DNA from: Sphingomonas piscis
GTDB lineage: Bacteria > Pseudomonadota > Alphaproteobacteria > Sphingomonadales > Sphingomonadaceae
Assembly (NCBI RefSeq): GCF_011300455.1
Contig: NZ_CP049869.1
Span: 1,763,501-1,827,500, forward strand
Direction of reading: 5' to 3'
DNA length: 64,000 nucleotides
The notes beneath the pieces were generated by a model. It was not told the origin of the DNA. It searched no databases and was given only the letters and a program-made list of their open reading frames with translations. Both the position numbers and the translations under genes were made by a program. Below are positions 58,951-63,812 of this stretch, piece by piece (the first letter of the stretch is position 1; each line of letters begins with the position of its first letter).

Positions 58951-60018
58951 ATGCCCCTCCTCCAAGCCAATAAAGCCTACAAGCCGTTCGAATACCCCTG
59001 GGCGTTCGAATATTGGAAGCGTCAGCAGCAGATCCACTGGATGCCCGAGGAGGTGCCGCTGGGTGAGGATTGCCGCGACTGGGCGCAGAAGCTCACCGAC
59101 CATGAGCGCAACCTGCTGACGCAGATCTTCCGCTTCTTCACCCAGGCCGACGTCGAGGTGCAGGATTGCTACCACGACAAGTACGGCCGCGTGTTCAAGC
59201 CGACCGAGATCAAGATGATGCTGACCGCGTTCAGCAACATGGAGACGGTGCACATCGCCGCCTACAGCCACCTGCTCGACACGATCGGCATGCCCGAGAG
59301 CGAATACAGCATGTTCCTTCAGTATAAGGAGATGAAGGACAAGCACGACTATCTCTCGACCTTCGGCGTCGACACGGACGAGGACATCGCCAAGACGCTC
59401 GCCATGTTCGGCGGCTTCACCGAAGGGCTGCAATTGTTCGCCAGCTTCGCGATGCTGATGAACTTCCCGCGCTTCAACAAGATGAAGGGCATGGGCCAGA
59501 TCGTCAGCTGGTCGGTCCGCGACGAAAGCCTCCACTGCGAAGGCATCATCCGCCTGTTCCACGCCTTCGTGAAGGAACGCGACTGCCTGACCAAAGACGT
59601 CAAGGAAAGCATCATCGACACCTGCCAGAAGACGGTGCGGCTGGAGGACGCCTTCATCGACCTCGCCTTCGAACAGGGCCCCGTCGAAGGCATGACGCCC
59701 AAGTCGATCAAGAAGTACATCCGCTACATCGCCGACTGGCGCCTGGGCCAGCTCGGCTTCCAGCCGATCTACATGGTCGACGAGCACCCGCTGCCGTGGT
59801 TGGCGCCGCTGCTCAACGGTGTCGAGCACGCCAACTTCTTCGAAACCCGCGCGACGGAGTATTCGAAGGCGGCGACGCGTGGCGACTGGAATACGGTCTG
59901 GGATAATTTCGACCGGCGGCAGAAGGCCAAGGGGTCGGCGGCTAATGATGGGGAGGGTGGCGCTGCGCCGGCGGGTGAGGCGGATATGTTCGCTGCTGCT
60001 GGGGTTGCGGCGGAGTGA
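58951..60018 (+). CDS. nrdB: Class I ribonucleotide reductase small subunit
   Basis: Holds the diiron-tyrosyl radical cofactor. The 355 aa protein has the ferritin-like helices: QADVEVQDCYHDKYGRVF, AFSNMETVHIAAYSHLL (Glu, His ligands and the likely radical Tyr), GFTEGLQLFASFAMLMNFPR and SVRDESLHCEGIIRLFHAF (Glu, His). The C-terminal tail is alanine-rich and ends MFAAAGVAAE, suitable for docking on NrdA. Same operon as nrdA. After this gene base composition falls sharply. Confidence 0.95.
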   Translation: MPLLQANKAYKPFEYPWAFEYWKRQQQIHWMPEEVPLGEDCRDWAQKLTDHERNLLTQIFRFFTQADVEVQDCYHDKYGRVFKPTEIKMMLTAFSNMETVHIAAYSHLLDTIGMPESEYSMFLQYKEMKDKHDYLSTFGVDTDEDIAKTLAMFGGFTEGLQLFASFAMLMNFPRFNKMKGMGQIVSWSVRDESLHCEGIIRLFHAFVKERDCLTKDVKESIIDTCQKTVRLEDAFIDLAFEQGPVEGMTPKSIKKYIRYIADWRLGQLGFQPIYMVDEHPLPWLAPLLNGVEHANFFETRATEYSKAATRGDWNTVWDNFDRRQKAKGSAANDGEGGAAPAGEADMFAAAGVAAE

Positions 60019-60032
60019 GAGAAATAAGAGAT

Positions 60033-60260
60033 ATGACTGACGAAGAGTGGCACCTCTATCGTGCGCGCGAGTGGGCGGCGTCCAGGTACCGCGCAGAGGG
60101 CCATCATGTTTTCGCGAAGCAGGTTGAAAGTGGTCTTCGGGATGAATGTTCGCAGGTTAGGTTAGGAGTCTTCATTTTCGAGAATCCTCGGCCTCATGAC
60201 CCGGCATTCATTTCAGCGTGGAAGGAGATGGCGGACCTAACCGAAGCTGGAGCAGCCTGA
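60033..60260 (+). CDS. Small hypothetical protein at island edge
   Basis: A 75 aa charged protein (MTDEEWHLYRAREWAASRYR; FIFENPRPHDPAFI). I see no known domain. ATG 60033 follows AAGAGAT; GTG 60015 overlapping the nrdB stop would add six residues. It precedes the TIR island by seven bases and may belong either to that operon or to the nrd operon. Confidence 0.55.
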   Translation: MTDEEWHLYRAREWAASRYRAEGHHVFAKQVESGLRDECSQVRLGVFIFENPRPHDPAFISAWKEMADLTEAGAA

Positions 60261-60267
60261 TCTTACT

Positions 60268-60678
60268 ATGAGCGAGTTTCGCGAGAAGTGGCCTGAGATG
60301 CGCATGAAGCATCTCGAACTGGTGCAAAACGCGATTACTCGCATGGGTACCAACAGCGCGGGTCTCAAGGGATACTGCATGGGGATCGTGGCTGCTTTGA
60401 TTGCGCTCGCCGGTGCGATTGAGAAGCCACGGATCTTGTTTTTAGGCCTTCCCATAATCGTGGCGTTTGCGGTGCTTGATGCAAGCTACCTAGTCCTGGA
60501 GCGCGGTTTCAGGGATCAGTACAACGAGTTGCGGTTGAAGCCGCTCGAGTCCGAGCCGGACTTCCATATCGAGCCGAAAGAGTCCGCAACACTGGCGGAC
60601 GCACTACTGAGTTGGTCGGTTCTAGGGTTCTACGGCGCTGGAATCCTGATCGTGGTCGCTGTCGGAGTGTTCATTTGA
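60268..60678 (+). CDS. Small membrane protein of the TIR island
   Basis: A 136 aa protein. A polar N-terminal helix (MKHLELVQNAITRMGTNSAG) is followed by two close transmembrane segments (about 38-52 and 55-75, ILFLGLPIIVAFAVLDASYL), a polar linker and a third C-terminal one (about 113-136). No enzyme motif is present. Placed directly before two TIR-type genes it is the best candidate for the membrane-disrupting effector of a defence system, which is inference from context. Next gene starts after 14 bases. Confidence 0.7.
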   Translation: MSEFREKWPEMRMKHLELVQNAITRMGTNSAGLKGYCMGIVAALIALAGAIEKPRILFLGLPIIVAFAVLDASYLVLERGFRDQYNELRLKPLESEPDFHIEPKESATLADALLSWSVLGFYGAGILIVVAVGVFI

Positions 60679-60692
60679 CGGGAGTTCCGCGA

Positions 60693-61340
60693 ATGCACAG
60701 CAACTCACTTCTTCTTGGTTCCGCTATGAAGATCAAGCGTCGGCGCGTGTTCTTCTCATTTCACTTTCAACGAGACGGTTGGCGCGCAAATCAAATCCGG
60801 CAATCTTGGCGGTTCGGCAATGAAGCCACTCGCGCTGGCACGGGCTTTTTCGACGGAAGTTTGTGGGAGTCTGCTCAGAGGAAGGATGATGCATCTTTAA
60901 AGGCCCTAATAAACACAGGCTTGGAAAACACGTCAGTTACCTGCGTGTTGGCAGGCACTGAGACCTACGCGCGACGGTGGGTTAGGTTTGAGATCGCGAA
61001 AAGCGTTGCGCGTGGGAATGGCCTCTTGACCGTGTGGATCGACCAAAAGCGAGACCCAAACGGTTTGACCTGTGCAAGAGGGCCGGACCCCCTCGGCTAT
61101 ATGGGCGTGTATCTAGCGGAGCCGGGAAAAATCTATCTGGCGGAATACCATTCAGGACGTTGGCAGCGTTACTTGGACTACCGAATGCCGGTGCAGCTTC
61201 CTTCTTCTTGGAGGGCACCAACAAGCAGCAACGTAATCCCGCTTCACAATTACGCGCGGAACCACTGCTACGTGACAGAGGGAGGCTCCACCAGCTTCGC
61301 GATGTGGATCGAAGCTGCCGCTCAGTCAGTCGGTCGGTAG
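60693..61340 (+). CDS. ThsB/MTH538-like TIR protein
   Basis: A 215 aa protein of the TIR-like fold seen in MTH538 and Thoeris ThsB: RRVFFSFHFQRDGWRANQIR (strand A and first loop), TGFFDGSLWESAQRKDDASL, NTSVTCVLAGTETYARRWVR and FEIAKSVARGNGLLTVWID, with the likely catalytic Glu100 in FEIAKS. In Thoeris such proteins make an ADP-ribose-type signal from NAD on phage infection. The C-terminal part (about 120-215) is extra. ATG 60693 has GGGAG upstream; ATG 60726 (MKIKRRRVFF) is possible. Confidence 0.8.
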   Translation: MHSNSLLLGSAMKIKRRRVFFSFHFQRDGWRANQIRQSWRFGNEATRAGTGFFDGSLWESAQRKDDASLKALINTGLENTSVTCVLAGTETYARRWVRFEIAKSVARGNGLLTVWIDQKRDPNGLTCARGPDPLGYMGVYLAEPGKIYLAEYHSGRWQRYLDYRMPVQLPSSWRAPTSSNVIPLHNYARNHCYVTEGGSTSFAMWIEAAAQSVGR

Positions 61341-61341
61341 C

Positions 61342-61896
61342 ATGCTCTTCACCGAAGGAGAGCTTCGTGCCAAGGTTCAGTTTCGCGAGACTGTTACAGC
61401 GAAAAAAGCCGATCAAATATTGACGGAGTCGCGCGACTTAACTTCGTCCAACTTCGACGTCTTCCTGTCCCACTCCATTCTGGACAAGGAACTAATCGCA
61501 GGAGCAAAGCTCGCCTTAGAAGAACGTGGGCTTTCTGTGTATGTCGATTGGATCACTGATCCTCAGCTGGATCGCACCCGTGTGAGCACAGGAACTGCCA
61601 GCCACCTTCGGCGTCGGATGAGGCAGTGCCAGATGCTAGTTTATGTGCACTCAGAGAATGCCGCAGTTTCGAAGTGGTGTCCTTGGGAACTTGGTTATTT
61701 CGACGGGATGCGCCGTGGAAACGTCTTCATCATGCCAGTAGCATCGAACATCAAATATGGCTTCGAAGGCCAAGAGTATTTGGGGCTGTACCCTTATCTG
61801 GTTCGCACTAGCGACCGCGCTAACGTTCTGGTCATGGAGGCGAATGTTCCCGCTTTCATTGAGCAAGCAAAATCGGCGATACTCACCCGTAAGTAG
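61342..61896 (+). CDS. TIR-domain protein
   Basis: A 184 aa protein. A 35-residue helical start (ELRAKVQFRETVTAKKADQI) leads into a canonical TIR domain: SNFDVFLSHSILDKELIAGA (residues about 36-55), SVYVDWITDPQLDRTRVSTG, RMRQCQMLVYVHSENAAVSK and WCPWELGYFDGMRRGNVFIM with the conserved catalytic Glu116. It is probably an NAD+-cleaving enzyme. It starts one base after the previous gene, so the two TIR proteins are made together. Base composition is lower in GC than the flanking genes. Confidence 0.82.
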   Translation: MLFTEGELRAKVQFRETVTAKKADQILTESRDLTSSNFDVFLSHSILDKELIAGAKLALEERGLSVYVDWITDPQLDRTRVSTGTASHLRRRMRQCQMLVYVHSENAAVSKWCPWELGYFDGMRRGNVFIMPVASNIKYGFEGQEYLGLYPYLVRTSDRANVLVMEANVPAFIEQAKSAILTRK

Positions 61897-61903
61897 TAAA
61901 GCC

Positions 61904-62028
61904 GTTACGAAGTAAATCCGTGACGTCGAACGGGTTGGCCTGACGGCCACCCGCCGGCCGGGCTTTCGCATCTCTCGCACAGCTTCGGCGACGCTTCGCG
62001 TCGGCGGCGCTATGCTCGGTGCTTCAGC
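61904..62028. repeat. Intergenic repeat, copy A (GTRAA type)
   Basis: Begins with an imperfect hairpin (61904-61924, loop GTAAA). Bases 61911-61960 are identical to 62915-62964. Similarity continues, less exact, to CTCGGTGCTTCAGC at the end, where the TGA of the leftward membrane-protein gene is embedded. It closes the TIR island on the right. Confidence 0.75.
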
Positions 62029-62907: not shown

Positions 62908-63033
62908 GTCACGGAGTAAATCCGTGACGTCGAACGGGTTGGCCTGACGGCCACCCGCCGGCCGCGCTGAAGCATCTCTTCGCGCTGCTCGCGCGGCGCT
63001 TCGCGCCGGGCTCTCTGCGCTCGGTGCTTCAGC
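62908..63033. repeat. Intergenic repeat, copy B (GTRAA type)
   Basis: Starts with a perfect eight-base stem GTCACGGA/TCCGTGAC around loop GTAAA (62908-62928). The 50 bases 62915-62964 match copy A exactly. The end carries CTCGGTGCTTCAGC containing the TGA of the leftward nuclease gene, the same relation as in copy A. Confidence 0.8.
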
Positions 63034-63643
63034 TGCACCAGCTCCTTCTTCCTCCGCCATATTCCCGCGCCAGGCCTTCGGCGATCAGCGTCTCGCCCAC
63101 GTCCCGCCCGTCCACCGCAACATTGCGCAGCTTGCGGCCGTACACGTCCTCGTCGCGGTCGATGCTGGTCAGGGTAATGGCGCCCGAATTGACCAGCTGC
63201 TGCAACCGTCCCGCCGCCCGCTCGCCCAGCGCCAGCTCGCTGTCGCAGCCATAATCATGCGTCTCCGGCGCATCGATCCCGGCGATCCGGATTTTCTGCC
63301 CGTCCAGGAAGATGGTGTCGCCATCCACCACGCAATTCGTTCCGCCGCCCCATTTGCACGCGCCGAACGCCTGTCTTGAGCTTGTCGTGGGGTTCGTCCG
63401 CACCGAGGGCGAGTCCGAAACCGTCGGCACCGGCGCATTGCCCGAATTCGTCGGCACCAGCGCCTCAGCCGAAGCCGTCGGTACCGCCGTCCGCTCCGCC
63501 GTCGAGTCCTCGGTTGGCAGATAGTGCCACACGGAAAAGCCGACGAACGCCGACAGCAGGATCGTCAGCCGCCAAAAGGGAAGGTCGGCAGATTGGGGAC
63601 GGGGGCGCCGCCCACGCCGGCCGCCGTTGCTGACATGGTCCAT
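63029..63643 (-). CDS. Thermonuclease-like (SNase) protein
   Basis: A 204 aa protein: a basic start, one transmembrane anchor (about 22-40), a Ser/Thr/Pro/Ala-rich linker and a staphylococcal-nuclease domain (VVDGDTIFLDGQKIRIAGID with Arg and Asp ligands, APETHDYGCDSELALGERAA, DVYGRKLRNVAVDGRDVGET, LIAEGLAREYGG). It is a calcium-dependent nuclease exposed outside the membrane. The start is uncertain: ATG 63643 is used, GTG 63721 is possible. Confidence 0.8.
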   Translation of the reverse strand: MDHVSNGGRRGRRPRPQSADLPFWRLTILLSAFVGFSVWHYLPTEDSTAERTAVPTASAEALVPTNSGNAPVPTVSDSPSVRTNPTTSSRQAFGACKWGGGTNCVVDGDTIFLDGQKIRIAGIDAPETHDYGCDSELALGERAAGRLQQLVNSGAITLTSIDRDEDVYGRKLRNVAVDGRDVGETLIAEGLAREYGGGRRSWCS

Positions 63644-63812
63644 CCCATGCCAGCTTCGCCGCGTCCGCTGAGGGGCGCGAAGAGGGGCCGCCTCGCCGCC
63701 GGGATGCCAATGCTTGCTCACCGCCGCGGCATAGACGAGGCGCGGTTGCGAACTCGTTAGCTATCGGCTCCGGTTCGGATGCGACCCGCACTGCGTCTGC
63801 TAGCGCCAGTAA

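Follow-up and report, generated by a model that had tools for sequence, protein, structure and literature searches.

Type I Thoeris pairs a SIR2-SLOG ThsA with ThsB, and operons with at least two TIR genes occur in it (PMC12578639). In the accessible part of that paper, ThsB1 of the Staphylococcus aureus Thoeris system is described as binding a phage capsid protein, with only the active site of ThsB2 being needed, and the catalytic TIR of a streptococcal Thoeris system studied there is ThsB1. Type II, as in Escherichia coli CFT073, combines a TM-macro ThsA with ThsB1 and ThsB2; for this type, the available sections of PMC11204291 report nucleotide-induced oligomerization and membrane perturbation, propose that the TM-macro ThsA oligomerizes, and report that EcThsB1 hydrolyzes NAD+ as well. 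HIT proteins (ThsC) accompany TIR genes in what PADLOC calls "Thoeris type II"; they are given as present in 2.4% of Thoeris systems and were proposed to help produce or eliminate the messenger (PMC8565338). Type III (NCBIfam ThcA/ThcB4) is likewise TIR-based, and the type IV effector is described as a caspase-like protease in the accessible text of PMC12847820. A candidate system, PDC-M50, is catalogued in PADLOC-DB 2.0.0 (2023) as the families PDC-M50A and PDC-M50B; we found no paper naming it. In Pycsar or CBASS, a short helical membrane protein can stand beside an enzyme that makes a nucleotide signal.

The locus analyzed here lies in a window of 64,000 nucleotides from the genome of Sphingomonas piscis, which is a single 2.72-Mb contig, and consists of three plus-strand genes encoding a small membrane protein (MEM) and two TIR proteins (T1 and T2). 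As in PDC-M50, adjacent MEM and T1 genes, 14 bases apart, match M50A and M50B; the window differs in having a third gene, T2, whose product matches ThsB models. Because both members of the MEM-T1 core match catalogued families, this core is not new: the original prediction, of a new TIR operon with a plain membrane protein in the place of ThsA, holds for the architecture but not for the novelty of the pair. A literature search, outside of which most subscription journals lay, gave us no published account of how varied the TIR partners of M50A are, nor of the HIT fusion, the trio or the nrdB hotspot reported below.

With type I Thoeris the trio shares T1, a ThsB-family protein with the catalytic Phe and Glu, but a small membrane protein replaces the SIR2-SLOG ThsA. 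The lack of an encoded ThsA had been predicted and was supported: neither SIR2 nor SLOG was found in the trio, and SIR2_2 had no match in the genome (the control matched in 2 of 14). STALD had no match in the genome either, in a search whose control matched nowhere. With type II the trio shares a membrane effector and two TIRs, so that the combination of a membrane protein with two TIRs, predicted to be a different architecture, is already represented by the TM-macro ThsA and two ThsBs of E. coli CFT073 (PMC11204291, seen in part). What differs is MEM itself, with 136 aa, three long helices and no macro match. Nor need two TIR signals be assumed, as the prediction had it, since in two studied type I systems catalytic residues are required in just one of the two TIRs (PMC12578639). 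In contrast to the ThsC-containing loci, four plasmid records of M50A have HIT and MEM as one fused protein, whereas the MEM of the window is without HIT. None of the four ORFs scanned matched ThcA of type III, and T2 reached just 17.5 bits against NCBIfam ThcB4, for which the cut-off is 220; no match in the trio suggests type IV. The membrane effectors of Pycsar and CBASS differ as well, as none of 28 M50A members (the MEM of the window and 27 relatives) matched PycTM at E ≤ 0.1 and the trio gave no cyclase-family match (Pfam). Since the effector of types I, II and III is in each case not the one found here, we do not file the trio under any of them, although its mode of action is probably Thoeris-like.

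Gene organization and the two TIR proteins

MEM (60268..60678) is the proposed effector. It is followed by T1 (60693..61340), the proposed signal synthase, and by T2 (61342..61896; 184 aa), a canonical TIR protein proposed to act as phage sensor or co-activator. The mechanically called ORF of T1 starts at a TTG at 60612, inside MEM; the ATG at 60693 gives a protein of 215 aa, and an alternative ATG at 60726 one of 204 aa. With T1 starting at 60693, the gaps are 14 bases between MEM and T1 and 1 base between T1 and T2, in agreement with the tight spacing of the original prediction.

T1 matched ThsB_TIR in Pfam (4.4e-22) and both PDC-M50B (4.3e-49) and ThsB (1.7e-46) in PADLOC. Against the PDB, it matched 6lhy and 9b7d (ThsB1) at 2e-39, and Bacillus cereus ThsB, 6lhy, was its best structural relative. 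The Glu of the FEIAKS motif, correctly predicted as Glu100 when counted from the ATG at 60693 (residue 89 from 60726), aligned to the Glu of RYEIMKS in 6lhy, which we take to be the catalytic Glu85, as the numbering fits. In an alignment of 42 T1-type sequences, comprising that of the window and 41 others picked by their similarity to T1 (E ≤ 1e-8), this Glu was present in 42/42, F9 (the first Phe) in 40/42 and F12 (the third aromatic) in 42/42. T2 matched TIR_2 in Pfam (5e-08), the PADLOC ThsB model PDLC00422 (1.6e-63) and, in the PDB, 8btn_B (2.8e-36), with which the PWELGYFDG stretch is kept. The Glu within WELG is residue 116 of T2, as had been stated for the WCPWELG motif, and was kept in all five aligned trio sequences, that of the window included. 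Pfam-family searches of the whole genome returned one ThsB_TIR match and one TIR_2 match.

The trio also stands out by its base composition. The G + C fraction of 60268-61896 is 0.542, compared with 0.64 on average over the window, and all 296 other stretches of equal length had higher values; the GC3 of the trio genes is 0.58-0.69 compared with 0.88 for nrdB. The predicted count of 30 G/C in the 60 bases of 60721-60780 and a composition below that of nrdB were thus reproduced, and the low-GC block together with the patchy presence described below fits the transfer that had been suggested. Between nrdB and MEM lies a possible plus-strand ORF of 75 aa (60033..60260), starting 14 bases past the nrdB stop, whose status is uncertain and which the original prediction does not mention. 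Pfam, PADLOC and NCBIfam gave no family match for it at E ≤ 0.1, and it was absent from 13 of 13 other loci compared; it could be the first cargo gene or could have arisen by chance.

The M50A membrane protein and its partners

MEM matched PDC-M50A over residues 11-132 (E = 6.2e-26). No significant Pfam domain was found, the best match being at 0.24, and the AlphaFold2 model (mean pLDDT 95.3) consists of three long helices at residues 2-51, 61-90 and 116-135, with lengths of 50, 30 and 20 residues; hydrophobic stretches lie at about 33-51, 56-78 and 117-136. These results agree with the predicted 136-aa membrane protein lacking an enzyme motif. Neither Pfam nor the confident three-helix model revealed a macro, SIR2 or SLOG domain, and we detected no recognized ligand-binding domain and no clear fold match. 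Likewise, 27 relatives of MEM gave only scattered weak Pfam matches, the best at 0.0021. SLATT-type 2TM effectors are a possible analogue of MEM; no SLATT match at E ≤ 0.1 was obtained with Pfam in the 28 M50A members, a comparison of sequence profiles alone. In 16 diverse aligned M50A members, H15, L16, Q20, R25, K34, F67, D71, L75, E78 and R82 are invariant, and the conserved polar residues among them (H15, Q20, R25, K34, D71, E78 and R82) fall in helices 1 and 2.

To place MEM in its genomic context, we searched with a MEM profile, which yielded 563 relatives at E ≤ 0.001 among 8,000 candidates scored, and surveyed the best 80 of 166 confirmed places on genome contigs, all fetched by MEM alone. 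MEM has a TIR gene directly beside it in 55 of these best 80 loci, on the same strand in 48 and on the opposite strand in 7. For comparison, a TIR neighbor was present for 30 of the 509 other ORFs in these loci; the control ORFs by design include flankers of the same TIRs and were checked in bulk, not singly. The seven opposite-strand loci, in which the two genes do not form an operon, are all from Poribacteria; in each (L034, L042, L055, L061, L078, L081 and L082), M50A and a short ThsB-type gene are convergent and 29 to 77 bases apart.

The remaining 25 loci were TIR-negative by the profiles used. Among them, L051 has a Roco-TIR neighbor with a Pfam TIR_2 match, L015 has a weak TIR_2 neighbor on the other strand that is below the cut-off, and L014 has a DUF4062 neighbor, DUF4062 being described as a TIR-like NADase family in the accessible part of PMC13174449. 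In two poribacterial loci (L033 and L037), a nucleoside 2-deoxyribosyltransferase-like gene precedes M50A and there is no TIR, and two others (L046 and L071) are at contig ends. Nothing relevant was seen in the rest, for which part of the neighbors was scanned against Pfam.

Similar linkage was obtained closer to the window. MEM was present in 3 of 397 genomes of the family (single-sequence query) and, with a profile, in 11 of 396 genomes of the order and 10 of 385 of the class. These searches together gave 20 distinct alphaproteobacterial genomes with MEM, and a TIR gene adjoins it in 17, once on the opposite strand; L106, L113 and L114 have no TIR beside MEM. On plasmids, 11 of 12 records with MEM have an adjacent TIR gene, and in the twelfth, from Dietzia, a HIT gene lies between MEM and TIR. 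The TIR proteins beside MEM or in one cluster with it are diverse and include Roco-TIR, a 395-aa TIR and TIR-SLOG. In Thiolinea and Thiofilum (L051 and L056), M50A directly follows LRR-Roc-COR-TIR (Roco-TIR) genes, an unusual and large TIR partner, and plasmid p1 of Vibrio chagasii (L166) carries two M50A genes and TIR genes in one stretch, apparently as two tandem modules.

The complete trio, in which genes for MEM and for T1-like and T2-like proteins follow each other as in the window and share a strand, was found in four other places: a different genus of the family, where it also lies behind nrdB (L083, recovered again as L097 and L117), another family of the order (L100), a Sulfitobacter plasmid (L171) and Anaerolineales (L073). 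Identity to the window over these four trios is 39-53% for T1 and 28-45% for T2. A fifth, looser trio (L011) has TIRs found only with iterated profiles, and five more loci (L032, L036, L045, L066 and L067) have at least two TIR genes around MEM in a different gene order. The original prediction had named the lack of a conserved neighborhood as what would speak against it; MEM-TIR linkage is instead broad, and the trio recurs. The MEM-T1 pair occurs more often on its own than together with T2; the core can therefore do without T2, which is best regarded as an accessory sensor.

Of the 12 plasmid records, 4 have a HIT-MEM fusion beside a TIR gene (L163:3048-3935, L164:3048-4067, L173:3048-4067 and L174:3048-4067), with HIT at the N-terminus of M50A; a single strain is the source of two of these records. 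On these plasmids, of Rhodococcus, Mycobacteroides and Mycolicibacterium, the HIT-annotated gene overlaps or comes after the TIR gene. In the Mycobacteroides fusion, the first 140 residues resemble HIT enzymes (best match 8e-25), and both fusions that were translated have an HxHxH motif and consist of M50A in their C-terminal part. In L165, L031 and L075, HIT is a separate neighbor of MEM; no TIR was detected in the latter two. The HIT association thus links M50A to nucleotide signaling, independently of the window. We infer that the N-terminus of MEM is cytoplasmic, with which a HIT domain fused at that end is consistent. The actinobacterial-plasmid fusions stand directly beside DISARM or restriction genes.

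The region downstream of nrdB

The trio lies behind nrdB (58951..60018, plus strand), which encodes the ribonucleotide reductase small chain (Pfam Ribonuc_red_sm, 1.5e-75) and serves as the chromosomal anchor of the insertion site. Beyond the trio, on the minus strand, an SNase-domain gene (63029..63721; Pfam SNase, 1.1e-09) is probably the old neighbor of nrdB, as a match to it lies ∼230 bp past nrdB in L087 and ∼290 bp past it in L090.

We found nrdB in 20 of 21 same-genus genomes, our own included, and compared the stretch behind it in 14 of the 19 others. A low-GC block directly past nrdB was present in 10 of these 14, with different cargo in each and, in 9 of the 10, on the nrdB strand; L119, L124 and L126 have no such block, and L121 is intermediate. 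The main early cargo protein had a PADLOC match at E ≤ 0.001 in all 10 (four below 1e-20, six from 2e-4 to 2e-16), the cargo ORFs having been chosen by low GC and not blindly. PADLOC matches include DRT4, DRT2 and PDC-M34A, and Pfam matches include GmrSD-HNH, Schlafen AlbA_2, HNH_2, AAA-TIR and AbiJ_NTD4; the PADLOC label "pAgo" for the L128 cargo was not supported by Pfam. Because 1 of 10 random ORFs (drawn from the 36 in the window) also matched PADLOC, at 1e-28, such matches are not proof of defense. In L129, L131 and L132, the cargo start codon is at most 10 bases from the nrdB stop, which suggests that this cargo uses the nrdB transcript; elsewhere the start lies some hundred bases on.

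A family-wide search located nrdB in 116 of 119 genomes, and 30 loci were obtained. The G + C fraction of the first 400 bases past nrdB was 0.53 or less in 10 of 29 loci, our own excluded; the 10 include one same-genus locus and L155, under which the trio locus L083 was recovered once more. Ten ORFs from nine low-GC family loci gave a Pfam match in five cases (SIR2_2, PycTM, AAA_16, AAA_15 and a weak HATPase_c) and none in the other five. Trio genes were found within ∼1.5 kb of nrdB in none of 11 same-genus loci, and the same trio occupies the nrdB site in the different genus represented by L083. Overall, the results indicate that defense-like genes gather in a compact hotspot at the nrdB 3' end in this bacterial family. 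The loci concerned are 60019-62000 of the window and L117, L120, L122, L123, L125, L127-L132, L135, L153, L161 and L162.

Proposed mechanism and competing readings

We consider it fairly probable that the trio is a Thoeris-like, TIR-signaling abortive-infection operon, in which an NAD-derived signal gates MEM to damage the inner membrane. T2, possibly with T1, would recognize a phage component, and T1, the Phe/Glu active site of which is intact, would convert NAD+ to an ADP-ribose-type messenger. This messenger, or the activated TIR itself, would act on the cytoplasmic part of MEM, which may then oligomerize and breach the inner membrane before phage release. By analogy, the proposed division between sensor and synthase follows S. 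aureus Thoeris, and the putative membrane outcome follows type II Thoeris. We infer the defensive function, and with it protection against phage; the nrdB site lends this inference independent positional support. Counted against this reading are the lack of a ligand domain or clear fold match in MEM, the 25 of 80 surveyed loci that were TIR-negative by the profiles used, the 3 of 20 alphaproteobacterial genomes without TIR, and the opposite-strand pairs of Poribacteria.

The lack of a recognized enzyme or ligand domain in MEM would also suit the main rival, which we regard as rather unlikely. In it, the TIRs are themselves the effectors, NADases that deplete NAD+, and MEM is a membrane scaffold or a sensor of the envelope disturbance at phage entry that assembles them at the membrane. 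The catalytic Glu is indeed kept in both TIRs, and the TIR protein SpbK is described as an abortive-infection NADase (PMC12847820). However, T1 belongs to the ThsB family, the best studied members of which make messengers (PMC11204291 and PMC12578639), although EcThsB1 is reported to hydrolyze NAD+ as well (PMC11204291). Moreover, the range of TIR architectures, very unlike one another, with which one MEM family occurs is more in keeping with a shared downstream effector, and fusion to a nucleotide-handling HIT domain suits a receiver of signals.

Considerably less probable still is that MEM keeps the TIRs inactive until phage attack, as an inhibitor or immunity protein in the manner of a toxin-antitoxin pair. 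MEM is a small partner of potentially toxic enzymes, and the seven convergent MEM/TIR pairs, all from Poribacteria, could be read in this way; but membrane antitoxins are unusual, and both the HIT-MEM fusion and the many TIR types would be left unexplained. A non-defense role of the operon in signaling or stress, to which its position behind nrdB would be incidental, is the most improbable of all, given the patchy presence of MEM (3/397, 11/396 and 10/385 genomes) and the low GC, plasmid carriage beside DISARM or restriction genes, and an insertion site full of defense-like genes.

Returning to the reading in which MEM is the signal-gated effector, we posit more tentatively, as a possibility that we would not yet bet on, that M50A is a minimal self-contained effector of this kind, with sensor and membrane breach combined in ∼130 residues, and constitutes a further Thoeris class. 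One module would then serve many NAD-processing sensors (ThsB, canonical TIR, TIR-SLOG, Roco-TIR, DUF4062 and perhaps nucleoside-deoxyribosyltransferase-like proteins) in many phyla, with HIT sometimes added to read or erase the signal. If MEM is indeed the effector of TIR signaling, it could be tested which messenger is used, where it is bound and whether fused HIT acts as a sensor or as an off-switch. Few TIR-driven immune effectors would then be smaller than the 136-residue MEM, which has no ligand domain of its own, and its partnership with a wide range of TIR architectures would mark it as a common output module. For the bacterial family, further small systems may be sought at the nrdB hotspot.
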